From assembly GCA_017553205.1 (NCBI GenBank), contig JAFZMV010000085.1, forward strand, positions 1-35,258: a DNA stretch of 35,258 nt, read 5' to 3'. The DNA is from Selenomonadaceae bacterium. Lineage in GTDB: Bacteria; Bacillota; Negativicutes; Selenomonadales; Selenomonadaceae. Shown in pieces: positions 6,800 to 20,887 of the stretch. Each line of letters starts with the position of its first letter. The first letter of the stretch is position 1. The position numbers were made by a program, and so were the translations under genes. The notes beneath the pieces were generated by a model. That model saw nothing but the letters and a program-made list of their open reading frames with translations. It made no database searches and was not told the DNA's origin.

Positions 6800-6828
6800 C
6801 GGATTAGTTATCTCAAGGAGGGATTTCT

Positions 6829-8640
6829 ATGTCTATGGTTGTCAAGAATAACATGTCGGCTGTTCACACGCTAAACACGCTGAATAACAACAGCTCTGCT
6901 TTGCAGAAAAGTTTGGCAAAAGTTTCCAGCGGCATGAAAATCAACAGTGCACAAGATGACGCGTCGGGTTATGCAATTTCCGAGCGTATGCGTGTGCAAA
7001 TTCGTTCACTCGATCAGGCTAACAGCAATGCTCAAAATGCATCGTCTTTGATTAAGACGGCAGAAGGTGCTGTCGGTTCAACTTTGGATATTGTTAGAAC
7101 CATGAAGGAAAAGGCTATTAACGCAGCGACTGACACAAACACAGATCAAGACCGTTTAACCATTCAAAAAGAAATGGATCAGTATATTGATCAGGTAGAC
7201 GATAATTCTCTTGTTACATTTAACGGACAGATTTTACTTGACGGAAGTTCAATGCCTTTCAATAACGAAGAGTACACCAATGAGCAGAATATTGTACGCG
7301 GTCTCAATTCTGCTTGGATTCAAGACGCTATTGATCTTATCAGCGAAAGTTACGGCTTGGATTTTACTCAAAACGGCAATCAGGCAAAATCGCTCAAAGT
7401 AGTCTTGGATACAGATACTGCCGCTTCAGGTACCTTAGCTTCATGTGGCGGTTCATTTTATTCGGACGGTACTCTTAAAGACGGTCAGCTTACATTAACA
7501 ATTTACATGAACAGTATCGGCGATGTTGATAAATACAGTCAAGACGGTAAAACTACAGGTTCCAGCCTGTATCTTGACCGTACTATTGCTCATGAATTAA
7601 CTCACGGCGTTATGTATTCAAAATTCGCTAAGAGAATGTTGAGCGGAACAGACAGTCTGCCAAGTTGGATTATTGAAGGCGGTACGGCTGAACTTGTTCA
7701 CGGTGCAGATACTCGTGATTTAACAGCCTCATTGACAAATTCTAACACGTTTAAAACCAATGTTTTTGACGCTACAGGTACGGGAGCGGCTGCAGGTGAT
7801 GCATATGCGGGCGGTTTTGTTGCCATGCGGTATATGGCAAAAAATGCCAATGCAAATCATCAAGAAGTTATTAAAAATTTCATGAATGCTTTGGACAGAG
7901 GCGGAACAGTTGATCAGGCTTTTAGTGCTGCTTCAGGTGGTAAATGGGCAACACGTGCAGACTTTGAAAATGCTATGCTTGCCGATATTGACAGATATGC
8001 AGGCAATGCGACGGCTTTTCTTAAAGAAAAATGCGGTATTGATACCTCCAACGATGATACAGGCTCAATCACAGGTTCTGACGCAGGTACAAAACTTACA
8101 AAAACTGCAAAAAGCGTTGTTCATGAAGTCGGCTCTACAACAAACTGGCGGTTACCTTCTTCTACTTCCACATTGATCGGAGGTCTTGAAGTTATCTGGC
8201 CTGCAGGCATGTCCGTTACAAACGGTGCGGGCGGCGGTATGGCTTTTCATATTGGTCCTAAAGCAAATGATACATTTAAAGTCGGCTTTAACGATATGAG
8301 AGCAAAAGCTATCGGACTTTACGACGAAGAAGGCGAAAAACTTAATATCACAACTCAAGCAAAAGCAAGAGCCGCTATCAGTACGCTTGATAAAGTTGTA
8401 AATATTGTTGTAGATCAACAGGCAAATATCGGTGCAATGCTCCAGCGTTTGGATTATACTTCAGCTAACTTAACAACTTCTTCCGAAAATGTTCAGGCGG
8501 CAGAATCCACAATCCGCGACGCTGACATGGCAAAAGAAATGACAAACTACACGAAAAATAATGTTCTTCTTCAAGCTGCTCAATCTATGCTTGCACAAGC
8601 TAACCAAAATTCTTCGGCAGTTTTGAGTTTGCTCCAGTAA
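6829..8640 (+). CDS. Flagellin with inserted metallopeptidase domain (flagellinolysin)
   Basis: This structural flagellin is 603 residues long. Its N-terminal D0/D1 region (1-140; SSGMKINSAQDDASGYAI at 33-50) and C-terminal D1/D0 region (about 490-603, ending in SAVLSLLQ) are fully conserved. The surface-exposed variable region contains a zinc peptidase: HELTH at 255-259 (H255, E256, H259), then WIIEGGTAE, where E283 or E288 would be the third zinc ligand of a gluzincin. This is the arrangement described for flagellinolysins, which make proteolytically active filaments. Flagellin-type sequence (MAFHIGPKAND, MRAKAIGLYDE) resumes after about residue 440. The start ATG has AAGGAGG at 6815-6821; a second in-frame ATG two codons on is less well spaced. 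The gene is monocistronic behind a sigma-28-type promoter, and no other flagellar gene is in the window. Confidence 0.92.
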   Translation: MSMVVKNNMSAVHTLNTLNNNSSALQKSLAKVSSGMKINSAQDDASGYAISERMRVQIRSLDQANSNAQNASSLIKTAEGAVGSTLDIVRTMKEKAINAATDTNTDQDRLTIQKEMDQYIDQVDDNSLVTFNGQILLDGSSMPFNNEEYTNEQNIVRGLNSAWIQDAIDLISESYGLDFTQNGNQAKSLKVVLDTDTAASGTLASCGGSFYSDGTLKDGQLTLTIYMNSIGDVDKYSQDGKTTGSSLYLDRTIAHELTHGVMYSKFAKRMLSGTDSLPSWIIEGGTAELVHGADTRDLTASLTNSNTFKTNVFDATGTGAAAGDAYAGGFVAMRYMAKNANANHQEVIKNFMNALDRGGTVDQAFSAASGGKWATRADFENAMLADIDRYAGNATAFLKEKCGIDTSNDDTGSITGSDAGTKLTKTAKSVVHEVGSTTNWRLPSSTSTLIGGLEVIWPAGMSVTNGAGGGMAFHIGPKANDTFKVGFNDMRAKAIGLYDEEGEKLNITTQAKARAAISTLDKVVNIVVDQQANIGAMLQRLDYTSANLTTSSENVQAAESTIRDADMAKEMTNYTKNNVLLQAAQSMLAQANQNSSAVLSLLQ

Positions 8641-9373: not shown

Positions 9374-10348
9374 TCAGCCCAAGTTTTTCATCAGCGAAAT
9401 TATTGCTGGGAAAAGCAGTACAACGAATACTGACGGGAAAATAAATAAAACCATCGGGAAAATAATTTTTACGGGAGCTTTCATGGCTTCGGCTTTTACA
9501 AATTGGCGGTGGCGTTCTCTCATGTTGTCCGCCTGCACTCTCAAAGTCTGTGACATATTTGTACCGAGTTTTTCAGCTTGTATTATTGAAGTCGTGAACA
9601 AATAAATTGCCTCAACGTCGCAACGTTTTGCAAGCTGTGTCAACGCATATTGTTTTGTCATTCCGAATCTTATATCGTCCTGCATGTGTTTAAATTCGTC
9701 CGTCAATGTACATTTCATTCTTGCGACGATTTTTGAAACTGCTCCGTCAAATGATAATCCCGCTCGAACACTTACGCAGAGCAAATCTAAAAATTCTGGG
9801 AGTTCTTTTTTCAGTTGTTTTTTCCGCTGATTGATTTTTGAATTTAAGACGGCAAAAGGAAAAATTCCGCCTAATAAAGCCCCTGCCAGCACAACTACAA
9901 TTTGTTGCGTGAAAAATAAATTCGTTTTTTGTATGACGAATACCGCACCCAAAATTCCGATAATGATTGACGTAACCCAAGCCGCTCCAAGACTTTGAAT
10001 ACTCCAAACTCCATTTTTTCCAGCACGGAAAATATAATCTTCCAGCATGATAACGATTGCAGACGGCGTAAATTGGTGGAGAGTTTTTATCACCTTTGCT
10101 ATCATCGGCTGAATTACACGTTCCGAAAAAGTCATGTCATCAAAATCTTTTTGATCTGCAATTTTTATTGTAGTCACGACTTTTGGAGGATTTCTCTTTT
10201 CTTCTTCCGCACGTTCTGCCTCTGCCTGTGCTATCATTAAATCAATTTTTTTGTGAACTTTTGCCTGATCAGTCTGCTTGATGCGGATAATATAAACGAC
10301 GAAAAACGCACAGACTGCCACAGAAATTGCCGCAGATATTAAAATCAT
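9374..10348 (-). CDS. tadC: Tad pilus inner-membrane platform protein TadC
   Basis: This 324-residue type II secretion F-domain protein has an N-terminal helix (about 3-22), two central helices (about 119-165), a cytoplasmic T2SSF domain (LPEFLDLLCVSVRAGLSFDGA, then GTNMSQTLRVQAD) and a C-terminal helix pair. The end, KAPVKIIFPMVLFIFPSVFV, is diagnostic of TadC rather than TadB. With TadB it forms the membrane platform through which the CpaF ATPase drives pilin assembly. It starts 15 bases after cpaF ends and is the last clear tad gene of the operon. Confidence 0.88.
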   Translation of the reverse strand: MILISAAISVAVCAFFVVYIIRIKQTDQAKVHKKIDLMIAQAEAERAEEEKRNPPKVVTTIKIADQKDFDDMTFSERVIQPMIAKVIKTLHQFTPSAIVIMLEDYIFRAGKNGVWSIQSLGAAWVTSIIIGILGAVFVIQKTNLFFTQQIVVVLAGALLGGIFPFAVLNSKINQRKKQLKKELPEFLDLLCVSVRAGLSFDGAVSKIVARMKCTLTDEFKHMQDDIRFGMTKQYALTQLAKRCDVEAIYLFTTSIIQAEKLGTNMSQTLRVQADNMRERHRQFVKAEAMKAPVKIIFPMVLFIFPSVFVVLLFPAIISLMKNLG

Positions 10349-10363
10349 TTTAATTCCCTGCCT

Positions 10364-11818
10364 TTAGAACATTGACGGCAGTTCAACGCCGTTCATCTTA
10401 AATTTGTCGAGGAAGGAAGGTTGCAAGCCTGATGCCTCATAATGTCCGACTGATTTTCCGTTGCTGTCAATATAATCTTGAACATATCTGAAAAGGTCTT
10501 GCAAAATTATTGTATCGCCTTCCATTCCCTGCACTTCAGTTATATAAGTTATTTTTCTTGTGCCGTCGCGTATACGGGACTGTTGAAGAATTAAATCAAT
10601 AGCCGAAGAAACTTGAGTACGAATAGCACGGACAGGCAAATCCATTCCAGCCATCAAAACCATTGTTTCAAGACGTGCCAAAACGTCGCGGGGAGTATTT
10701 GCGTGAGCTGTTGTCAATGAACCGTCATGACCTGTATTCATCGCCTGCAACATGTCCAACGCCTCACCCGCACGAACCTCTCCGACAATAATTCTATCGG
10801 GACGCATACGAAGAGCATTTCGGACTAAATCGCGAATTGTAATTGCACCTTTTCCCTCAAGGTTTGCGGGACGAGCCTCCAAAGTTACAACATGTCTTTG
10901 CTGTAGTCTTAATTCCGCCGCGTCCTCAATAGTTACAATTCGATCTGTTTCCGGAATAAATGAAGAAAGAACATTCAATGTTGTAGTTTTTCCTGAACCT
11001 GTACCGCCTGAAACCAAAATATTTAAACGTGCACGAACACAGGCATCAAGAAATTCAGCCATTTCACTGCTCATTGTTCCGAATCTTACAAGGTCATGGT
11101 ATGACATAGCTTTTTTGGAAAACTTTCTTATAGTAACCGTCGCACCGTTCAAAGCAAGCGGAGGGATAATAATATTTACGCGGGAACCGTCAGAAAGTCG
11201 AGCGTCAACCAACGGCGAAGACTCATCAACACGGCGACCGAGAGGAGTTAAAATTCTTTCGATAATACTCATTAAATGTGCTTCGCTGTCAAAATTTGTA
11301 TCAGTCAGCATGAGTTTACCTTTTTGCTCAACGAAAATTGTATCCGGGCCGTTTACCATAATTTCCGTGATGTTTTCATCTTTCAAAAGCGGTTCAAGCG
11401 GTCCGAGTCCCAAAAGTTCGTCGCAAATATCTTCGACCAGCTGAAAACGTTCACTACGCGACAAAGTTATTTTTGAATGTTCGCTGATTTCTCTTTCAGC
11501 ATAAGCCGCAATAATATTTTTAATCTGATCTCTGGCATTTTCTCCCCTTGCGACCATTGCTTGTTCGTCAGATGACATTTCGTTGATAATTCTGCGGTGA
11601 ACTGCAGACCTTAAATCTTGAATCTTATCCGCCGAAGATGCTATAGCCGAATGTCTGCCCGCAAATGCCGATGCCTCAGTCGTTATATTTGAATCGGAAG
11701 CAGTTTGAGTTCTTGTGCTGTATGTTGCTATCGTTTGTTTTTTCTCAACCTTTTTCGGCTGTTCGATTTCTTCTTTACTTCCGCCAAGACGTTCCAGCAG
11801 TGAAAGCGATTTTGCCAT
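10364..11818 (-). CDS. cpaF: Tad pilus assembly ATPase CpaF/TadA
   Basis: This 484-residue secretion ATPase powers Flp pilus assembly. Walker A is GGTGSGKTT at 271-279, the Walker B region is RPDRIIVGEVRA at 339-350, the Asp box is TIEDAAEL at 296-303, and the His box GHDGSLTTAHANTPRD spans 363-378. All are intact. The N-terminal 120 residues are a variable, low-conservation extension usual for CpaF. ATG at 11818 is preceded by GAGGAGGG. It lies between tadE and tadC; in many tad loci it precedes tadB directly, so the gene order here is rearranged. Confidence 0.93.
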   Translation of the reverse strand: MAKSLSLLERLGGSKEEIEQPKKVEKKQTIATYSTRTQTASDSNITTEASAFAGRHSAIASSADKIQDLRSAVHRRIINEMSSDEQAMVARGENARDQIKNIIAAYAEREISEHSKITLSRSERFQLVEDICDELLGLGPLEPLLKDENITEIMVNGPDTIFVEQKGKLMLTDTNFDSEAHLMSIIERILTPLGRRVDESSPLVDARLSDGSRVNIIIPPLALNGATVTIRKFSKKAMSYHDLVRFGTMSSEMAEFLDACVRARLNILVSGGTGSGKTTTLNVLSSFIPETDRIVTIEDAAELRLQQRHVVTLEARPANLEGKGAITIRDLVRNALRMRPDRIIVGEVRAGEALDMLQAMNTGHDGSLTTAHANTPRDVLARLETMVLMAGMDLPVRAIRTQVSSAIDLILQQSRIRDGTRKITYITEVQGMEGDTIILQDLFRYVQDYIDSNGKSVGHYEASGLQPSFLDKFKMNGVELPSMF

Positions 11819-11866
11819 GAAAATTTCCCTCCTCTTTTGAGAATTAAAGATTAAAATTTCTAAATC

Positions 11867-12346
11867 CTAGTTACTTTTATATATAATCGTAGATGTTTCT
11901 AATCTCATTTTATAATTTATGGTTTTCAATTCTTTCGGCAGAACATTTAAACTTTCCAGAGCAGGCGGCATTTCTTCGCGTTTCAAAGCAATAGAAATTT
12001 GAATGTCAGAGGCTTTTTCTGCGGAGACTTCATCGCCGTCCGAATCCATAAAAGTTGCCGTCCAAGTCGGAGTATATAAACTTGTCAACTGTACGGCGTA
12101 TCTGTCGAGGACTTCAGAATTTTGGGCGTTGATACTTGACGCAAGACTTTTTCTGAGAGCAGCCGCGTCGGAAGTAGTTCCCGCCTGTAAAGAAATATCT
12201 CTTGCCGCATCTCTTGCCGCGTTGCTGTATTGAATATAATCCATAAAAGCTATTCCGATATAAATAATGCTGACAAACAGATAAATCAGTATCGGAATGA
12301 CAAGTGCAAATTCTACTGTCGCCTGTCCTCTTTGTCGATTGTTCAT
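11867..12346 (-). CDS. tadE: TadE-like pseudopilin
   Basis: The 159-residue protein begins with a short positive leader ending in Gly7, followed by QATVEFALVIPILIYLF. This is the class III prepilin motif, with Glu at +5 of the mature protein and a single hydrophobic helix. The remaining globular part has the ANAAR-D-AAR stretch (SNAARDAARD) typical of TadE/TadF/TadG. It is a minor pilin-like component needed for Flp pilus biogenesis, to be processed by a TadV peptidase that is not in the window. The ribosome binding site GGAGGTGA lies within a small palindrome (near 12349-12359). A terminator stands between it and flp. Confidence 0.85.
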   Translation of the reverse strand: MNNRQRGQATVEFALVIPILIYLFVSIIYIGIAFMDYIQYSNAARDAARDISLQAGTTSDAAALRKSLASSINAQNSEVLDRYAVQLTSLYTPTWTATFMDSDGDEVSAEKASDIQISIALKREEMPPALESLNVLPKELKTINYKMRLETSTIIYKSN

Positions 12347-12368
12347 GGTGAGGTCACCTCCTTGTTAA

Positions 12369-12400
12369 AAAAGCTCCCCGCAAAAAATTAGGGAGCTTTT
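12369..12400 (-). terminator. Internal terminator between flp and tadE
   Basis: A perfect 10-bp stem, AAAAGCTCCC (12369-12378) with GGGAGCTTTT (12391-12400), is followed by a T run on the minus strand. It should end most flp transcripts while letting some continue into tadE-cpaF-tadC, giving excess major pilin. Confidence 0.85.
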
Positions 12401-12430
12401 CATCAAGAAAAATAATTCAGTTAGTGAGTA

Positions 12431-12664
12431 TTAGTTGCCGCTGTTGCCGGTTTTATTAGTGCTGATGGAATCAGTAGCAGCATCAATCTTGCTGTCCGCT
12501 TTGGTGAAAGCGTTGCTGATAGAATCGGAAAGGCTGGTATTCAAAACAACCGCCGCGATAACAGCGACAACAGCGATAATCAACGCATACTCAACCATGC
12601 CCTGACCTTTCTCCGAAATCATCTCGCGAATCTTAGCGGAGATCTTCTCAATGAACATTAACAA
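12431..12664 (-). CDS. flp: Flp major pilin subunit
   Basis: This is a 77-residue Flp/Fap pilin. The leader ends at Gly20; cleavage would leave QGMVEYALIIAVVAVIAAVV, with Glu25 at +5 followed by Tyr26, the Flp signature. A Ser/Thr/Asn-rich hydrophilic tail follows. I keep the TTG start at 12664 because AAAGGAG ends nine bases upstream. The in-frame ATG at 12658 would be 15 bases away. A possible promoter (TTGTTG, 17 bases, TAATTT on the minus strand, about 12682-12710) lies in the gap to tadB. Strong expression is expected, since a terminator follows at once. Confidence 0.9.
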   Translation of the reverse strand: MLMFIEKISAKIREMISEKGQGMVEYALIIAVVAVIAAVVLNTSLSDSISNAFTKADSKIDAATDSISTNKTGNSGN

Positions 12665-12712
12665 AATAACCCACTCCTTTGAAATGGTAAATTATGAAAA
12701 AAACATATATCC

Positions 12713-12732
12713 AACAATCCTATCAGATTGTT
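12713..12732 (-). promoter_or_regulatory. Small hairpin between tadB and flp
   Basis: AACAATC (12713-12719) and GATTGTT (12726-12732) form a perfect 7-bp inverted repeat with a 6-base loop, touching the tadB stop codon. A T run follows on the minus strand. It may be a weak attenuator or a protein site beside the putative flp promoter. Confidence 0.35.
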
Positions 12733-13693
12733 AAACGTCAATATCAACAATGCGGCGAATTACGAAATAACCGATAATTTCAAGAATGAATGAAACCAGC
12801 ATTGCCATTTGTCCCATCGGATCATGCAACATTTGTACAAAATCATCATGGTTGACAACGTACATCGCAGAACCTGCCGCAAAAGGAAGAAGGAGAAGAA
12901 CTATCGCCGAAAATCTTCCCTGTGCAGTTAAAGCAGAAATTTCACGTTTCATTCTGATTCTTTCCGCTATAGTATAACTGATACTGTCAAGTATCTGTGC
13001 CAAATTTCCGCCGACTTCGTGCTGAATTAAAACGGCTGTGACAACAAGTTCAAAGTCAGGACTGCCGACTCTGTGATTGGCATTTTCTAAAGCCTCTTCA
13101 AGTGGCATGCCCATGACAATGTCATGAGTCATTCTCGCAAATTCGTCACTGATAGGCGGCTCCATTTCGTTAGCAATAATTTCAACTGCCTGCTGAAAAC
13201 TGTATCCCGCACGGAGAGCATTTGCGATTGTTATAAGACAGTCGCCGAGCTGTTCAGTAAACGACTCCAAACGACGTTGAATTAAAATCAGCACGATAAA
13301 CCAAAGCACAAGCGAAACACCGACCGCCGCCGCGAAAGCTATCATAAAACTTAAGGTCAAAAACCAAATTATAATTCCTGTTATCAAAGATGCTGAAATG
13401 GATATTACTATATATTCGCCGCCAAGTAAAGATAATCCCGCTTGTTGCAATTTATATTCCAAAGATTGTGCAATATTTCTGTCGACGAGCGGTTTTGCGA
13501 CTTTTTGAACAAACTGATAAATCTGTTTGATTAAAATATTTACGTCGCCTTCAGTTCTTGAAACAGGTCTTACGCCGTAACGCCGCAATTTTCTAACAAT
13601 GTCTTTGTTTTTTCTTTTCTGCAGGAATATAGAAAGCAGAATCACCAGACCGAAAAAAGCCAGTGCGACTACAAGTGAAAAAAGTATAATCAT
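12731..13693 (-). CDS. tadB: Tad pilus inner-membrane platform protein TadB
   Basis: The 320-residue protein has an N-terminal helix, two central helices (about 95-140), a T2SSF domain with LRAGYSFQQAVEIIANE and GGNLAQILDSISYTIAERIR, and a C-terminal helix pair. The ERIRMKREISALTAQGR block is typical of TadB. It partners TadC in the assembly platform. Its ATG overlaps the stop of the upstream TadZ-type gene in an ATGA arrangement (13690-13693), indicating translational coupling. Confidence 0.9.
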   Translation of the reverse strand: MIILFSLVVALAFFGLVILLSIFLQKRKNKDIVRKLRRYGVRPVSRTEGDVNILIKQIYQFVQKVAKPLVDRNIAQSLEYKLQQAGLSLLGGEYIVISISASLITGIIIWFLTLSFMIAFAAAVGVSLVLWFIVLILIQRRLESFTEQLGDCLITIANALRAGYSFQQAVEIIANEMEPPISDEFARMTHDIVMGMPLEEALENANHRVGSPDFELVVTAVLIQHEVGGNLAQILDSISYTIAERIRMKREISALTAQGRFSAIVLLLLPFAAGSAMYVVNHDDFVQMLHDPMGQMAMLVSFILEIIGYFVIRRIVDIDV

Positions 13694-14802
13694 ATTTCTC
13701 TGCGGATAATTTTCTCCGCCAAATCATCAATAGTTCTGGTCATCACAGTATTTTGAGCAAGTCCGTTTACAATATTTCCGCTGTTTGCCATTGAAACTAA
13801 AGTATACTCGCTCGGGAAAATTGCCACAACTTGAAATCCCAATTTCATTTCAATTTGAAGTTTTGTAACAGAATCGCAAGGCACAACACGAGTAAACATC
13901 GGGAAAAATTTTGAGTTCGGAGTTTTTTTCATGTTGAAAATTTCCATGCTCCTTCTTACATGAGAAATTTCTGCACCCGTATTAAGCATGCTGATTACAA
14001 AATTTAAATTTGCGTAATTTGTAACGCCGATTGAAATAGGATTAAAATTTGCAGGCAAATCAATCAAAATGTATTTAAAAAGATTTTCTGACATTTTTAT
14101 AACGTCGAGTAAACCTTCAGCGTCAACAAGTTCAGCATATTCGGGACGTTCGGGACTTGCAAGCAACCACACATTATCAGTAATTTTGTGGTAGTAAGGA
14201 GCAAGCCTCATCGGAGTTAATGCCTTTGAATCATGAACCGCATCAACAACTGTGTGTGACGGTTCTGCGTCAAAAAATAACGGTAAGTCGCCAAACTGCA
14301 AATCTGCATCAATCAAAGCAACCGCACAGTTAGTTTTTTTTGCGATAGACAAAGCCATAAGCGATGCTAAAGTTGTACGACCTGAACGACCTTTGGGACT
14401 GAAAAAAGCTATCGTACGAGCAGGTCCCGTCGCTCCCCTCATCTTATAAAGATTTATAGCCTCAATAATTTTATCGGGACTGCGGGGAGGTTTTAAAATA
14501 CACCCTGTCGCACCGCTGTCAATAACTTCCGCAGAAATATCAGTATTCCATTCGGACATGGTGCAAAGAACTGTCTGTTTAGGAAAAATTTCGACGAGTT
14601 CAGGAAGTCTGCGTAAAAATTCTTCATTCTCAACATCGACGAGGAATAAAGACGGATTATAAATTCCGCTCTGTCCCAATGCCGCCCGCATGTCGTCATA
14701 AATCGCAACAACCTTAAAATTCTGCGAAGTTTTTAATACGTCATTTATTGCGGCTGCCATGCCTTTACGAGTTTCAATAATTACAACGCGATAAACAAAC
14801 AA
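13690..14802 (-). CDS. tadZ: CpaE/TadZ-type ATPase with receiver-like N terminus and Arg in the P-loop
   Basis: Residues 1-120 form a receiver-like domain (candidate D56 in FLVDVEN and K104 in ILKPP, but no typical acidic pair at the N terminus). Residues 128-370 are a ParA/MinD-type ATPase domain. TadZ/CpaE proteins place the Tad apparatus at its cellular site. The Walker A region is SPKGRSGRTT: the signature lysine K137 is kept, but the P-loop lysine is Arg142. The switch region ALIDADLQFGD and ILIDLPANF are present. It starts at TTG 14802, six bases after the paralogue ends, and is coupled to tadB. It may bind nucleotide poorly on its own. Confidence 0.85.
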   Translation of the reverse strand: MFVYRVVIIETRKGMAAAINDVLKTSQNFKVVAIYDDMRAALGQSGIYNPSLFLVDVENEEFLRRLPELVEIFPKQTVLCTMSEWNTDISAEVIDSGATGCILKPPRSPDKIIEAINLYKMRGATGPARTIAFFSPKGRSGRTTLASLMALSIAKKTNCAVALIDADLQFGDLPLFFDAEPSHTVVDAVHDSKALTPMRLAPYYHKITDNVWLLASPERPEYAELVDAEGLLDVIKMSENLFKYILIDLPANFNPISIGVTNYANLNFVISMLNTGAEISHVRRSMEIFNMKKTPNSKFFPMFTRVVPCDSVTKLQIEMKLGFQVVAIFPSEYTLVSMANSGNIVNGLAQNTVMTRTIDDLAEKIIRREI

Positions 14803-14808
14803 TCCTAA

Positions 14809-15669
14809 TCACCTGCCTTTGTCGTTGCGGCGAAATTTTCCGATAAGCCTTGAGAAAAAACCCTGAATTTCTTCAACAGTGTCCTGTTGTTGCGGTTCGT
14901 CAATTCCCCTCTGTCGTCTTGCATATTTCGCCGCAAGTTCCGCGAAACTTTTTGTCAAAGGAGAATTAGGAGCGGCAAACATCAGCGGACAACCCTCAAC
15001 AATAGATTTTCTCGTTGCTATGAAATCATTCGGCAATTTGTGGAAAAAATCAGTACCGACTATTCTTTGAACGTCATCGCCATGAATAAGTTTTTCTGCG
15101 GTTGAGCGGTTTTCAATCAGCCAAATTTTACTGTCCTCGTATTCAAAACGAATCAAGGTATCATAACCGATTTTAAAATTTTTGACTGACGGCAGATAAT
15201 CAATTACGCCTATAAAATTTATAACCGTACTCAAATCCAGCATCGCCAAATTCAACGCACTGAAAACCGCACTTAAATCCAAAATTACAAATTCAAAGTC
15301 GTAAAGCTGTTTTATAATACGCTCAATAAATTCAACGTCGATAATATAAGCGTCGAAAATCATTCGCGGAGATGCCAGAACTGAAAATTTTACTTCGCCT
15401 GCACTGCCGCTGTAGCGGTATTCGCTCAGGAAATTTACTATATTAAAATCCTCTGAATCTTTCTGCAAATGTGCACTGGTGATTGTATATCTCGGTTCCA
15501 TTTTCAAATAGTTAGCAATATCACCGAACTGCAAATCTAAATCTACAAGACAAACATTGTAACCTTCTTTTGTCAATCCTGCCGCTAAATTTATGGCAGT
15601 TATCGTTTTACCTATGCCGGAACTTGTGCCGAAAATGCTGATAATAATATTGCTCCGCCCGTTTGCCAA
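14809..15669 (-). CDS. CpaE/TadZ-type ATPase lacking the signature lysine
   Basis: The 286-residue MinD/ParA-like protein belongs to the TadZ/CpaE group. Walker A is GTSSGIGKT (14-22) with P-loop lysine K21 intact. The signature (deviant) lysine position is Ser16. VCLVDLDLQFGDIANYL is the switch region shared with the downstream paralogue. The C terminus (about 255-286) is basic and hydrophilic. It has no receiver-like domain. It starts at TTG 15669 after GGAGGG. Its residues complement those missing from the next gene, so the two may work as a heterodimer (see findings). Confidence 0.82.
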   Translation of the reverse strand: MANGRSNIIISIFGTSSGIGKTITAINLAAGLTKEGYNVCLVDLDLQFGDIANYLKMEPRYTITSAHLQKDSEDFNIVNFLSEYRYSGSAGEVKFSVLASPRMIFDAYIIDVEFIERIIKQLYDFEFVILDLSAVFSALNLAMLDLSTVINFIGVIDYLPSVKNFKIGYDTLIRFEYEDSKIWLIENRSTAEKLIHGDDVQRIVGTDFFHKLPNDFIATRKSIVEGCPLMFAAPNSPLTKSFAELAAKYARRQRGIDEPQQQDTVEEIQGFFSRLIGKFRRNDKGR

Positions 15670-15692
15670 TTTAACTGCCCTCCTTCTTTTTT

Positions 15693-15741
15693 AATGAGGA
15701 ACTAGGAGTTAAAATTCCCCATTCCTCATTCCACACTCCTA
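15693..15741. repeat. Interlocking inverted repeats between secretin and tadZ genes
   Basis: AATGAGGAA (15693-15701) pairs with TTCCTCATT (15722-15730), and TAGGAGT (15703-15709) pairs with ACTCCTA (15735-15741). Both are perfect. The two stems cross, which is pseudoknot topology, in the 73-base gap of the tad operon. Confidence 0.6.
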
Positions 15742-15742
15742 A

Positions 15743-17242
15743 TTATTCAAACGGTTCGTTTACAGGCTGAGTGCTTGAACCTTTCCGCTTATTTTTTTTG
15801 TCTGGAAGTGGAGGAGGCGGTGCATTTAAGTCTACATTTTCATAACTGTTTTTTTCGCGTTGACCTGCATGGTAATGCTCTCTCAATGATTCTGACATTC
15901 CCGCTTGTGAAGTTTCTTCCTGATCCATAATGTAAGGAGTCATCAAAATTATCAACTCCTGTTTCTTTTTGCTTTTTGAAGTGTATTTGAAAAATTCTCC
16001 GAGTATCGGAATATCTCCGAGCAAGGGAATTTTGCTGACAGCTTTTGTTTCAGAAGAATCCATCAAACCGCCGACAACCATAGTAGAACCAGATTTTAAA
16101 TTGACAACTGCATCTGCACGACGTGTTGTGATTATCGGTTGACCGTCGACGCTTTGTCCGCTCAAATTACTGACTTCTGTATAAACCGTCGCAACAATAT
16201 TATTTTGAGAATCTACAATGGGCTTGAACTGTAAAATTATTCCGTAGTCTTTGAAGTTTACCGTCGTTCCGTTTGCATTTGAAACCGTATAAGGAACTTC
16301 ACCGCCAATTTGAATGGTGGCTTGTTCGCCGCTCAAAGTCATAATACTTGGACGAGATAAAATTTTTGCGTTACTATTGGTAATAAGTGCATTTATTGAC
16401 ATATTTATATCGGCATGCCTTTCCATTAACCAACTCCAAGGATTACTTTTAAAGGATCGGCTACTCATATCATTTCTTGTATTTGATTCTCCAAGATAGA
16501 AAATTCCCTGATTGCCGGGAGCCCTTGTATCACCGCTATAACTGCTTGTTCCGTAGAGGATACCGAGATTTTTGGAATCTTCCGGATTAATTGCCAAAAC
16601 TTGTGCCTCAAGTCTGATTTGAGTCGGCTTAAGCATTTGAAGAAGGTCTATAACTTTTCCGCCATCCTCAACTTTATCTGTATTTGTGAGAGTTGTATTT
16701 GAGTCATCAGCTTTTGATGATTGAGTACTTAACGAAGGATTAACAGTACTTCCAAAATTTAAACTTGCTTTACTTCCGCCACCAACATAAAGGCGGGCAG
16801 TTTGTATTGCGTAATTTCTTTCGTACTGATTTTTGACAGTGCCTGTAAGTAAAACTCTGTCATCAACTTTTCTGACATGAACGTCAGGCAATCCGATAGC
16901 TTTTTCAATTACAGCTGCCGCTCCCGCCTGTTCTTTTGAAACGTTTATAATGTATTCGTATTTCGTGCCTCCTGTTGTCCAGATAAAAAGAGTAGTAGAA
17001 CCTTCTACACCTTTGGCAGTTATAACGAATTCATTTTTTGTAGGCGGTATTTGAACAACAGTAGCAATTTCCGCACTGCCTATAAAAATTTTTTCAATGC
17101 TGTTATTCAACTTGAAATGTTTGGAGGAGTGAAAACTCAATTCGAGAGTTTCAACATTGGAAACTTCCTCCGCCGCGAAAACTACGGAAAAACACGCAGC
17201 CCACAGCATAATCAATGCCGTTAAAAATCTCCCGTACTTCAT
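15743..17242 (-). CDS. cpaC: Tad pilus outer-membrane secretin CpaC/RcpA
   Basis: The 499-residue protein starts with a signal peptide (cleavage near VFAA-EEV, residue 24). A CpaC N-terminal domain follows (KIFIGSAEIATVVQIPPTKN), then a BON-like segment (about 110-145, VRKVDDRVLLTGTVKN). The secretin domain (about 210-440) ends in GGLMDSSETKAVSKIPLLGD and KKKQELIILMTPYI. It forms the outer-membrane pore for Flp pili, which implies a double-membrane envelope. The C-terminal tail (about 470-499) is Pro- and Lys-rich. ATG at 17242 overlaps the cpaB stop by four bases. Confidence 0.93.
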   Translation of the reverse strand: MKYGRFLTALIMLWAACFSVVFAAEEVSNVETLELSFHSSKHFKLNNSIEKIFIGSAEIATVVQIPPTKNEFVITAKGVEGSTTLFIWTTGGTKYEYIINVSKEQAGAAAVIEKAIGLPDVHVRKVDDRVLLTGTVKNQYERNYAIQTARLYVGGGSKASLNFGSTVNPSLSTQSSKADDSNTTLTNTDKVEDGGKVIDLLQMLKPTQIRLEAQVLAINPEDSKNLGILYGTSSYSGDTRAPGNQGIFYLGESNTRNDMSSRSFKSNPWSWLMERHADINMSINALITNSNAKILSRPSIMTLSGEQATIQIGGEVPYTVSNANGTTVNFKDYGIILQFKPIVDSQNNIVATVYTEVSNLSGQSVDGQPIITTRRADAVVNLKSGSTMVVGGLMDSSETKAVSKIPLLGDIPILGEFFKYTSKSKKKQELIILMTPYIMDQEETSQAGMSESLREHYHAGQREKNSYENVDLNAPPPPLPDKKNKRKGSSTQPVNEPFE

Positions 17243-18285
17243 TTTTTAGCCGCCTCACTTTTACTGCTTGAACCGTCATCACCGTAAAGAATTTCAATTT
17301 TATTCGGGTCGTGTTTGGAAGTTTCGTTTTCGGTCTTGAACGGAACAACATTTTGATTTGCATTTGGATTTAACACGGCATTCAAATTTGGATTATTCTG
17401 AATTGCGGCTTGAACGGCATTTTTCGGCGGCTCAACAATTTTTGCATTTTGAACCGACATTTGATCGTTGGGAACGTACATATTTTTCGGTTTATCGGGC
17501 CTGAGCATTAAATAAACTTCGCCGAGTTTTGACGCTGAAACAAGTTCCAAAACTTCATCAGGTTTTAAAGCCAAAGTCGCTATGGTAGGATTGGCAATAG
17601 CTTGAGAGGGAGAAGTTGCGGCAGCGTTGTTGTCTTTGCCCTTCTTTTTTTTGGCATTCTTGTCATTTTTTTCGTTTTTGTCTTCCTTGCCTTCTTCTTC
17701 ACTTTCCTCAACTTTTTCTTCTCCGCCCATAACGTCATTGATACTTAAGAGAAGAACATTTTGAAGAAGAAGACTGCTGACGGCTGTATTTTCAGCTTTT
17801 TCTACAAGCATGACATCTACATAATCGCCCGGCTTTGCGAAACCTGCAACGCCTGTCACGTCGTTTATGCTGATTGAAACCGCTCTGCAGTCAGGAGGAA
17901 TCGAACCTATAAAACCGCCCTTTTCAGCCGCACTGTAAACTTTTTGTTCAGTAAAAACATCTCCTGCAAAAATTGCGGTTTTTGTCATTCTGTTCGCCAG
18001 TTTGTCAATGTCGGTTATGGCATTAGGCGGAACCATGCTTTCGGGAACTGCTTTTACTTGGAGCATTTCTCTTTTCAGCACGGTTTTTTGTGAAATATTC
18101 GACTTGGCAACGACGACATTTTTTGTAATAATTGCTGGAGCATCATTTTTAGTCTGATCTGCTCCTGTAACAGATGAAAGCACGGTATAAACTACCGCGA
18201 AAACTATAAGTGCAACAGCGGTGGCGAGCATAGCCAGCTGTCGGGGAGGCAAGCCGCTCAACCAATTTACTAACCTCTTATGCAA
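17239..18285 (-). CDS. cpaB: Tad pilus assembly protein CpaB/RcpC
   Basis: The 348-residue protein has one membrane helix (about 18-38) and a SAF domain (about 48-110: SQKTVLKREMLQVKAVPE, then AGDVFTEQKV). An RcpC-type domain (about 118-260) is interrupted near residues 175-215 by a highly charged Glu/Lys/Asn stretch. CpaB is the periplasmic partner of the secretin. It starts at TTG 18285 with GGAGGTGG at 18293-18300 just upstream, and is the first gene of the tad operon behind a consensus promoter. The charged insert is unlike the rest of the protein and probably a flexible linker. Confidence 0.88.
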   Translation of the reverse strand: MHKRLVNWLSGLPPRQLAMLATAVALIVFAVVYTVLSSVTGADQTKNDAPAIITKNVVVAKSNISQKTVLKREMLQVKAVPESMVPPNAITDIDKLANRMTKTAIFAGDVFTEQKVYSAAEKGGFIGSIPPDCRAVSISINDVTGVAGFAKPGDYVDVMLVEKAENTAVSSLLLQNVLLLSINDVMGGEEKVEESEEEGKEDKNEKNDKNAKKKKGKDNNAAATSPSQAIANPTIATLALKPDEVLELVSASKLGEVYLMLRPDKPKNMYVPNDQMSVQNAKIVEPPKNAVQAAIQNNPNLNAVLNPNANQNVVPFKTENETSKHDPNKIEILYGDDGSSSKSEAAKK

Positions 18286-18399: not shown

Positions 18400-18753
18400 T
18401 TGATAAAAAACTTTGAAATTGAAACATCAGACGGCTTGAAAAAATTACAAATTGAAATCGCCGAAACTTTTTTCAGCAGACTTCGCGGACTAATGGGCAG
18501 AAAAAAACTGCCGCAAGGTCATGGGCTTTTGCTTTCGCCTTGCAGCAGTGTTCATATGTTGTTTATGAAATTTTCTATTGATGTAGTTTACGTCGATAAA
18601 AATTTTGTTGTGAAAAAAATTGTCAAAAATCTTCCTGCATGGTCGGGAGTTTCAATTTGTTTGGGAGCGGAGTCGGCTTTTGAATTTTCTGCAGGAGAAT
18701 CGGATCGTTTAAATTTGAAAATCGGAGATAAATTTATTTTTCCGAGTAAGTGA
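18400..18753 (+). CDS. DUF192 family protein
   Basis: This 117-residue protein is a near-complete DUF192 domain: FFSRLRGLMGRK near residue 24, GLLLSPCSSVHMLFMKFSID at 42-61, then VYVDKNFVV and GAESAFEFSAGE. The family's function is not established. It has no signal peptide, whereas many relatives are exported. It starts at TTG 18400 after AGGAGG (18387-18392), diverging from cpaB. Its last 20 bases overlap the 3' end of the convergent RTX-like gene. Confidence 0.85.
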   Translation: MIKNFEIETSDGLKKLQIEIAETFFSRLRGLMGRKKLPQGHGLLLSPCSSVHMLFMKFSIDVVYVDKNFVVKKIVKNLPAWSGVSICLGAESAFEFSAGESDRLNLKIGDKFIFPSK

Positions 18754-20587
18754 CAAAATTATTTTCCTGCGTAAGATTTTCAAAATTTTGATTCTCGATT
18801 TTTTCAAGTGAAGTCGGAGTCAAATTATTTGACGTAATTTCGGAAAGATTATCGGAAGTTGCAAAATTATTTTCTTCCGCAAACCAGAGGTCTGACGAAG
18901 TTGAAGAAATATTTGCACTGCCAGATTTTGTGTATTTTTTGGTAACTTCTTCTCCGTCCTCGTCAACTATTGTAATATTTCTGCCCTTGCCGTTTTTCAC
19001 GGTCAAATTTCCTTCGTTTGTCTTGAAGATAACATTTTTGCCCTTGATTTTCCAACTTTTTATTTTTACGTCGTCATCAAGCATAATGACATCTTTGCCA
19101 GCCTGATAATCTGTTATAACGTCATTTCCTTCAGAATAAACGAAAATATCTTCACCTTTTCCGCCTGTCAAAGTATCGTTTCCTTTTTCTCCCGCCAAAG
19201 TGTCATCACCTTTACCGCCGACAAGAGAATTGCTCAATTTATCTCCGGTAATTTCAACGCCTTCAGTAAGAGCCTTTGCGTTGACAATTTTTACTGTTGC
19301 CGCAAAGTCATCAAGATCAATTTCATCTTCCTTGAATTTTTTACTTGCTGTCAAAACTGTATTTTTCTTGCTGTAACTCAAGCCTAAAGGCATTGTAGAG
19401 CCGTAAACTTTTGATTTTTCGTCACCGTCTTCATCAATGACTGTAATTTTTTTGCCTTTGGCTTTTTTGACTGTGATTGTTCCGTTTGTTGTCTTGAGAA
19501 TAATGTCGTTTCCGCTGATTTTGGAACTTGTAATTTCAACATCTTCATCAAGCTGAATTTTATCTTTATTCGGAGTGTAATCTAAAATCGTGTCATTTCC
19601 TTCAGTGTGGACAAAAATATCGTTTCCGTTGCCACCTTTTATGGTGTCTTTTCCGTCTTTTGCCCAAATTATATCGTCGCCCTTACCGCCGACTAAAGAA
19701 TTATTTTTTCCGTTGCCGATAATTTCGATATTGTCAGAAACTTTTGAGGCATCAATATTTCTCAACTTTGAAGAATAATCTGAAAGATCAACAGAATCTT
19801 CATCATATTTTGAGCCGACGAAAATTGTTTTGCCTTTTACGGTTAATCCCTTTGTATTTCCGCCGTCATCAGTTCCGCCGTCATCAGTTCCGCCGTTATC
19901 AGTTCCATCGTCGTCAGTTCCGCTGTTATCAGTTCCGCCGTCGTCAGTTCCGCCGTCATCAGTTCCACCGTCGTCACTTGTGTTTCCAGATAAGCCTAAT
20001 AATTTACCGAGCGTAGAAGTCTTACTTCCCATGTAATACTGAACTTTGACATCTTTCAGTTTTGAAATTTTAGAAACGCCTTCAAATGTCAATTCAAAAC
20101 TATTTTCACTATCACTTAAAACTATACTTCCGTCTACAATCTTATAAGTAAATTTTTTGGCAGTAGAATCAATATAGAGCGAATCATTTTTAGTCATGTC
20201 CATAATCGTCGCCGAAATACTACCATTCTGTGGCTGAATCGAAAATGTATCTGCTCCGTCGCCGCCGTAAACAATTACATTACTCGCAGATTTTAAAATA
20301 ACGTAGTCGTCACCCGTGCCACCGTTTGCAAAAATATCACTTCCACCAATAACTATTGTATCGTCGCCACTGTCGCCATACATTTTGCCAGCGGTCGTCA
20401 TTGAAATATGGTCTTTTCCATCTCCACCGAAAAAAACGTTTTTGGTGTAATAATATGAATGATTATAAGGTTCAATAGTGTCATTTCCACCATTTCCGTA
20501 AACAGTTGAATTACTGGCCAATACTTCTATCTTTTCACCGTCACCAGTACCTTGATACGTTGAGTAATCATCGTAAACAGCTGCCAT
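18734..20587 (-). CDS. RTX-like calcium-binding repeat protein
   Basis: The 617-residue protein is acidic. Three regions carry glycine/aspartate nonapeptides of the hemolysin-type (GGxGxDxxx): about 30-130, 290-330 and 430-470 (for example GGKGDDIIWAKDGKD). The last two belong to a duplicated module of about 125 residues (EGNDTILDY / EGNDVITDY, TVIDEDGDE / TIVDEDGEE). A (DDGGT)n linker lies between the halves. There is no N-terminal signal peptide, as expected for type I secretion, but no exporter is in the window. I start it at ATG 20587: AGGAG abuts the ATG at 20596, leaving nine bases to the second one. It is probably a surface or secreted protein stabilised by calcium. Confidence 0.82.
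   Translation of the reverse strand: MAAVYDDYSTYQGTGDGEKIEVLASNSTVYGNGGNDTIEPYNHSYYYTKNVFFGGDGKDHISMTTAGKMYGDSGDDTIVIGGSDIFANGGTGDDYVILKSASNVIVYGGDGADTFSIQPQNGSISATIMDMTKNDSLYIDSTAKKFTYKIVDGSIVLSDSENSFELTFEGVSKISKLKDVKVQYYMGSKTSTLGKLLGLSGNTSDDGGTDDGGTDDGGTDNSGTDDDGTDNGGTDDGGTDDGGNTKGLTVKGKTIFVGSKYDEDSVDLSDYSSKLRNIDASKVSDNIEIIGNGKNNSLVGGKGDDIIWAKDGKDTIKGGNGNDIFVHTEGNDTILDYTPNKDKIQLDEDVEITSSKISGNDIILKTTNGTITVKKAKGKKITVIDEDGDEKSKVYGSTMPLGLSYSKKNTVLTASKKFKEDEIDLDDFAATVKIVNAKALTEGVEITGDKLSNSLVGGKGDDTLAGEKGNDTLTGGKGEDIFVYSEGNDVITDYQAGKDVIMLDDDVKIKSWKIKGKNVIFKTNEGNLTVKNGKGRNITIVDEDGEEVTKKYTKSGSANISSTSSDLWFAEENNFATSDNLSEITSNNLTPTSLEKIENQNFENLTQENNFVTYSEK
19861..19980. repeat. 15-bp minisatellite, eight units, inside the RTX-like gene
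   Basis: Eight tandem copies of a 15-bp unit (consensus CGCCGTCATCAGTTC on the plus strand) fill exactly 120 bases in frame. They encode pentads of the type T-D-D-G-G. The copies differ at one to four positions. Copy number could change without a frameshift. Confidence 0.9.
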
Positions 20588-20887
20588 AAAAACCATCTCC
20601 TAAATTAAAAATTCTACAAAACAACCTAAAAATTTTTCCAAGAATTTGAAACAAAAATTCTGAATGTATTATTATTTTTTCCAGAGATTTTGTCAAACGT
20701 TTCCGAGAATTTTAATCAAATTTTAACGTTAGAGAATTTAATATGTTTTCTGATTTCACTGAACCGCATTATATTTTTTTATGACAAGGGCTATGTTGAC
20801 AAAAATTTAGAGAGCGAAATGAATTTGATTGGACAAAAACTTCTTACATTGAAACGCGATTTCTATCGTTAAATCTTTGGTATTTTT
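20588..20887. other. Interval upstream of the RTX-like gene
   Basis: These 300 bases hold the RTX gene's ribosome binding site and promoter (20669-20696). The rest is AT-rich. A 60-codon frame at 20690-20872 has no ribosome binding site and is not accepted as a gene. Confidence 0.5.
20669..20696 (-). promoter_or_regulatory. Promoter of the RTX-like gene
   Basis: On the minus strand TTGACA (20691-20696) is followed after 16 bases by TAATAA (20669-20674), or after 17 by AATAAT. The start codon is about 80 bases downstream. Confidence 0.5.

Follow-up and report, generated by a model that had tools for sequence, protein, structure and literature searches.

The closest described relatives of the protein considered here are the flagellinolysins, or FlaMP, of Clostridium haemolyticum and Hylemonella gracilis, in which an insert with an HExxH motif and a downstream Glu lies between the two ends of a flagellin. 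The recombinant inserts of both species are reported to be active, metal-dependent proteases of broad specificity, and C. haemolyticum filaments are described as proteolytically active too (PMC5595980, PMC7643111); in those filaments the structural flagellin forms the main band and the flagellinolysin the second (PMC5595980). The describers called the biological function of flagellinolysins unclear (PMC7643111). Genomes of Quinella, an uncultured rumen bacterium, are described as holding nearly all flagellar genes, in a report whose main text mentions neither peptidase nor protease (PMC9585023).

The window analysed here is a whole contig of 35,258 nucleotides (JAFZMV010000085.1, our C59) from a Selenomonadaceae assembly of 2.39 Mb in 171 contigs, 92% complete. 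(C, L, G and f numbers are our handles for contigs or their proteins, loci, genomes and families.) Its flagellin gene with a peptidase insert (Table 1) is a further member of the published flagellinolysin family, sharing with the two described proteins the flagellin ends, the type of insert and the block order of the NCBI model. It lies outside a flagellar cluster, unlike the gene described for C. haemolyticum and like that described for H. gracilis. It also differs from the published proteins in reading EGGTAE where most of the relatives collected here read EGxAE, and in that its genome holds five permuted non-flagellin relatives. The bacterial collagenases (MEROPS M9, PF01752) match the window protein weakly by profile, over HExxH and the following helices; in contrast to a collagenase, its peptidase falls under the Pfam cut-off and is embedded in a flagellin. 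RTX proteins, which are exported by type I systems, share their repeats with some of the permuted relatives, whose peptidase is nevertheless of the flagellinolysin type.

We consider it probable that the window protein is an M9-like zinc peptidase displayed on the filament, and that this peptidase is a module which exists in Selenomonadaceae as two circular permutants, the catalytic-helper order probably being the older. The permutation and the non-flagellin branch are the new part, which literature searches did not find in print among the matches listed: the string "permut" is absent from both flagellinolysin papers (PMC5595980, PMC7643111), no paper among those searched has both flagellinolysin and Selenomonas, and a search for flagellin with circular permutation gave nothing on flagellinolysin permutants among the matches listed.

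The window gene and its neighbourhood

An earlier note, made from the letters alone, had described an intact flagellin frame with an HELTH zinc-peptidase site and a Glu downstream of it, and both were borne out. Flagellin_N covers residues 5-140 (117.7 bits) and Flagellin_C residues 519-602 (76.1 bits) in the Pfam scan, with filament-core regions flanking the insert on both sides, and the Glu is E283, within WIIEGGTAE, followed by E288. The NCBIfam equivalog model for flagellinolysin, NF033876, matches residues 112-534 with 279.8 bits, against a curated NCBI cut-off of 205 bits; together with the catalytic motifs and the modelling of the ends as a flagellin fold, this score supports the flagellinolysin identity that the note had proposed. 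The comparison of the insert with M9 domains, also proposed there, gave a weak match of Peptidase_M9 (PF01752) to residues 255-351 (17.7 bits, E 0.0024), under the Pfam cut-off of 26.

The nearest long same-strand frame upstream stops 115 bp before the gene, and the long frame that follows the gene runs on the opposite strand, a layout that agrees with the gene being monocistronic, as had been suggested. The sigma-28-like site, read against the sigma-28 consensus, has its CCGATA separated by 57 bases from the start codon, and a stand-alone gene with a sigma-28-type promoter is plausible on these signals. Scans for sigma-70 promoters and terminators gave matches no more numerous than in shuffled sequence. 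A Pfam scan of 20 window frames places genes of CDP-alcohol phosphatidyltransferase, glycosyltransferase and SbcD type and a 1078-aa frame with no Pfam match upstream. The Tad pilus genes and the RTX-like protein that had been reported nearby were found again, the Tad-type genes at 9374-18285 on the minus strand and the RTX-repeat protein beyond them. The last 170 residues of that protein are 55% identical to those of an RTX protease encoded elsewhere in the genome (C132, see below), which suggests a common export signal.

Table 1. Features of the flagellinolysin gene and its surroundings (window coordinates)
Feature	Position	Strand	Basis or remark
Sigma-28-like site, TTAA-N17-CCGATAA	6745..6772	+	1 of 10 positions off consensus
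Ribosome-binding site, AAGGAGGG	6815..6822	+	Read from sequence
Flagellinolysin gene, intact frame, 603 aa	6829..8640	+	Frame translation, NF033876 match
Flagellin N-terminal core, residues 3-140	6835..7248	+	Pfam and block profiles
Catalytic block, residues 152-339	7282..7845	+	Block profile; matches C132 145-352
HELTH, residues 255-259	7591..7605	+	Motif; at least 90% of 39 rows keep H255, E256 and H259
EGGTAE, residues 283-288	7675..7692	+	E283 probable third zinc ligand
Helper block, residues 346-458	7864..8202	+	Block profiles; before the catalytic block in permuted relatives
NDDTGSITGSDAG, residues 408-420	8050..8088	+	Top-conserved helper motif; D410, G412 and G416 invariant
Flagellin C-terminal core, residues 516-603	8374..8637	+	Pfam and block profiles
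RTX-repeat protein, no peptidase match	18734..20596	-	Pfam scan of window frames

A second, ordinary flagellin had been named as something to look for in the genome, and eight further flagellin-type proteins were found. The genome gives ten Flagellin_N matches: the window gene, one protein that we read as FlgL, since it adjoins a FlgK-like frame, and these eight, which range from 299 to 903 aa and, with the exception of L114, also have Flagellin_C. They lie on contigs C46, C107, C4, C42, C10, C45 and C81 of the window genome (G000), and several have long middle regions with no Pfam match. Pfam finds no enzyme domain in the genome's other flagellins. With several flagellins in the genome, the window protein probably shares the filament with other subunits, as is reported for C. 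haemolyticum (PMC5595980).

Active site and predicted structure

In an alignment of the window protein with 38 relatives, H255, E256, H259, E283, A287 and E288 are each conserved in at least 90% of the rows. The HExxH, the third-ligand Glu and the conserved Ala of flagellinolysins are thus all present; E283 and A287 stand one residue further apart than in most relatives. Of the 116 modules of the tree set described below, 113 have both HExxH and the EG of the Glu motif; both are lost in L037 and in the second L122 module, and L046, which lies outside that set, also lacks HExxH. The form EGGxAE is found in the window protein, L009, L010 and L020 (4 of 54 catalytic-helper modules), and two residues likewise stand at the place of insertion in one non-flagellin module; a form like EGxAE, one residue shorter, is found in 103 of the 116. 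The seven outgroup rows carry the shorter form, and the insertion is therefore probably derived. The third exception among the 116, the helper-catalytic flagellin of Selenomonas ruminantium ATCC 12561 (L015:4507-6402), has Ala in place of the expected third-ligand Glu; its catalytic-helper neighbour keeps the Glu motif.

A structure prediction, which the earlier note had recommended, gave a model of mean pLDDT 83.3 and pTM 0.76 from the 39-row alignment, the insert mostly at good confidence and the ends as a flagellin fold. The modelled insert has a helix (151-175), three strands (188-194, 204-210, 216-226), a helix holding HELTH (249-271) and a helix holding E283 and E288 (279-291). Helix, three strands, HExxH helix and Glu helix is the order expected of a gluzincin, and the predicted helix pattern fits that fold. 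Zinc binding and proteolytic activity of the window protein would follow from these motifs by analogy with the family. In a fold comparison of the whole protein all 50 matches listed are flagellins and none is a collagenase; because the whole protein was folded, the absence of collagenases there excludes nothing. A model of a helper-catalytic flagellin, from an alignment of two rows, reached pLDDT 33 and was set aside.

A two-block insert and its permuted relatives in the same genome

Beyond what the earlier note had claimed, the insert of the window flagellin consists of two blocks, a catalytic block followed by a second one that we call the helper. Collagenases have a helper subdomain, from which the name is taken; it is ours, by analogy, and a profile of the helper alone found nothing credible among solved structures (best E 0.27). 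The profile of the whole catalytic-helper module did not match collagenase, and in other profile searches collagenase was matched weakly (E 0.005 and 0.026).

When the genome was searched with NF033876 the window gene was returned together with five partial matches in non-flagellin proteins and short matches in three flagellins. In all five non-flagellin proteins (C132, C35, C135, C142 and C113a) the two blocks stand in the opposite order to the window protein, helper then catalytic. Residues 5-113 of C132 correspond to the helper at window residues 344-447 (43% identity, E 8e-16), and residues 145-352 to the catalytic region at 152-357 (33%, E 3e-19); the weakest helper match among the five is that of C113a (E 5e-4). 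A sixth relative, C113b, is a remnant without HExxH. RTX repeats exceed the cut-off in two of the five, and a serralysin model matches C132 in the repeat region only. The genome has one HlyD-type match over cut-off. L110:6801-7898 is a shortened copy of the adjoining helper-catalytic protein that has lost the HExxH part and kept both ends.

Distribution of the two block orders

Profiles built for each block and for the flagellin ends were used to classify frames of at least 150 aa in the fetched loci, exact copies removed. Both flagellin ends were found with the catalytic-helper order in 48 frames and with the helper-catalytic order in 14, a count that is no frequency since these 14 come from genomes picked for fetching; among the 62 the worst domain E-value is 1e-27 for the helper and 6e-33 for the catalytic block. 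The helper-catalytic order without flagellin ends accounts for 54 frames, of which some are pieces of the same gene, plus four array rows. In thirteen more catalytic-helper frames at least one flagellin end went unmatched; two of these are truncated and 11 belong to other families in the class. Seven rows are fragments, in which the catalytic block stands by itself or together with one end. Three rows, two of them distinct, are double flagellins whose first half carries a catalytic-helper insert: L022:7889-11218 (1109 aa) and L046:6001-9051 (1016 aa) each comprise two complete flagellin units in tandem with the peptidase insert in the first, and are possibly fused double flagellins.

In S. ruminantium ATCC 12561 a catalytic-helper and a helper-catalytic flagellin are encoded by adjacent genes 21 bases apart. 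In both, the insert starts after FNGxxLxDG and stops before a TGTK motif, and the flagellin junctions are the same in both block orders in the three frames and the window protein that were compared. The NCBI flagellinolysin model passes both helper-catalytic flagellins that were scanned (L048 and L015), each in three pieces, so that annotation hides the block order. Tandem modules also occur: the helper-catalytic module is present twice in L122, and L125:4608-10490 is a single 1960-aa frame with three such modules, each with HExxH, preceded on the contig by a frame with two more.

Counting either order, the helper-catalytic profile matches 137 of 189 Selenomonadaceae genomes and 62 of 66 in the window's genus; the genome of L046 (G388) has 27 module matches. 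Of 15 helper-catalytic non-flagellin proteins that were scanned, 6 have RTX repeats over cut-off (2 of 5 from the window genome, 4 of 10 others), and in three more the repeats score below it.

In a sample of 250 genomes of the class, 41 match the catalytic-helper profile. Outside the family 12 class genomes match, 11 of them with a single match in the catalytic-helper order; in G350 (L191, family code f15) the blocks are swapped, helper before catalytic, outside Selenomonadaceae. Seven of the extra-family class proteins (L089, L090, L196-L200) pass the flagellinolysin model with 290 to 364 bits. In these and two more (L089, L090, L196-L202) Flagellin_N is over the cut-off in three, below it in five and absent in one, and Flagellin_C is absent in all nine; with their ends eroded to this extent, they may be former flagellins that no longer build filaments. 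Among 299 genomes drawn from the phylum, the helper-catalytic profile finds matches in six, three belonging to Selenomonadaceae and three not. One of the latter, L227, from outside the class, is an intact catalytic-helper flagellin with 325.9 bits on the flagellinolysin model; the other two matches are scraps of 33 and 37 positions.

Trees and shared history of the blocks

Once near copies and modules with an incomplete block had been dropped, 116 were left: 54 catalytic-helper (47 from the family, 7 outgroup), 14 from helper-catalytic flagellins and 48 from helper-catalytic non-flagellin proteins. In the main tree (296 columns), rooted on the seven catalytic-helper outgroup proteins, which were counted as flagellins, the window gene is placed at the base of the family, paired with L009 (100/93) and with L010 as a looser companion. 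One clade (98/84) takes in all 48 non-flagellin modules, and another (100/99) takes in 12 of the 14 helper-catalytic flagellins, the other two, L097 and L185, standing apart in an unresolved fork. This tree requires three changes of block order and one of host; forcing all helper-catalytic modules into a single clade is not rejected (AU p 0.36). The trees from single blocks are poorer, with five and six changes of order and two and five of host.

When L227, a long branch, is added and used as root, L009 and L010 form one clade with the window gene (100/98), the non-flagellin modules fall into two groups and are whole in 1% of bootstrap trees, and four changes of order and two of host are needed. 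Because the best trees need three or four changes of order, repeated permutation or exchange is possible; and because the 98/84 clade is fragile, splitting once L227 is added, the non-flagellin modules may have left flagellins once or more than once. Distances between helper blocks follow those between catalytic blocks (Mantel r 0.71, a value reached in none of 500 shuffles; r 0.63 for the family alone), and transfer of the helper alone was set aside since both blocks share a history.

Discussion

On the reading that we prefer, the window gene would be expressed late, as a flagellin, and its product would leave the cell by the flagellar channel and be assembled into a filament consisting mostly of other flagellins. 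The catalytic and helper blocks would be displayed between the filament-forming ends, and the filament surface would cleave the proteins that it touches. The peptidase is a self-contained module that exists in two related forms, catalytic-helper and helper-catalytic, the latter placed in flagellins at the same insertion point as the former and also in non-flagellin proteins, some with RTX repeats. The swapped block order itself is well supported, and its occurrence in such different hosts suggests a movable protease unit. Since both orders fit one insertion point, the two ends of the module would lie close together. The catalytic-helper order is probably the older because flagellinolysins outside the family also have it (L227 and 11 proteins from the class's other families); the swapped order of L191, likewise from another family, counts against the reading. 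The other order could have arisen by tandem duplication followed by partial loss, a route for which there is source material, as tandem modules exist in L122 and L125.

The same tandem arrays contain stretches of helper-catalytic-helper, and from these one might suppose that the ancestor had two helpers and that different lines lost one or the other, with no permutation at all. We regard this as quite improbable. A second helper is seen in none of the 116 single-module proteins (14 + 48 + 54), even at E 1, the two blocks share the history described above, and helper identity averages 0.36-0.37 when the catalytic-helper flagellins are compared with the other two groups, close to the 0.41 seen among the catalytic-helper flagellins themselves. 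Somewhat less improbable, though still unlikely, is that the window protein is a structural flagellin with a peptidase that is dead or weak through the extra residue beside the third ligand. The window's clade has EGGxAE rather than EGxAE, by which the third zinc ligand could be weakened; this form is the rare one among the catalytic-helper modules, and the relatives L037 and L046 have lost HExxH entirely. Against this, HExxH and EGGxAE are kept together in all four diverged members (L004, L009, L010 and L020), and in the model of the window protein the Glu helix is predicted to be intact at 279-291.

The number of permutations and their place are less well supported. We put forward only tentatively that the flagellum was the birthplace of released proteases, the module having been permuted within a flagellin, left it in permuted form, and spread in Selenomonadaceae as RTX-type and other proteins; a single genome has up to 27 module matches, and Selenomonas flagellins still hold both permutants side by side. 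A little more doubtful is the opposite course, in which the protease left the flagellin, was permuted elsewhere and re-entered the same site, perhaps repeatedly, the helper-catalytic flagellins being re-insertions. The abundance of helper-catalytic modules outside flagellins, the separate position of L097 and L185 from the other 12 helper-catalytic flagellins and the second change of host once L227 is added would all agree with re-entry; the insertion point, which is the same as in the catalytic-helper flagellins, and the single change of host on the first tree speak against it.

Natural permutants at one insertion site, encoded by adjacent genes of a culture-collection strain, make it possible to test directly how the insert folds, whether proteolysis by the filament depends on block order, and what the role of the enzyme is.

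Expression signals across the collected genes

Sigma-28-like sites at most one of ten positions off consensus precede 9 of 63 module flagellins and 16 of 69 plain flagellins, genes with fewer than 150 bases upstream being excluded from these and the following counts. Because the remaining eight flagellin genes of the window genome have sites two or three positions off, we draw no regulon from them. Such sites, again at most one position off, precede 7 of 46 helper-catalytic non-flagellin genes vs. 6 of 260 other genes, which is suggestive that some of the non-flagellin proteases may be switched on together with the flagellum.
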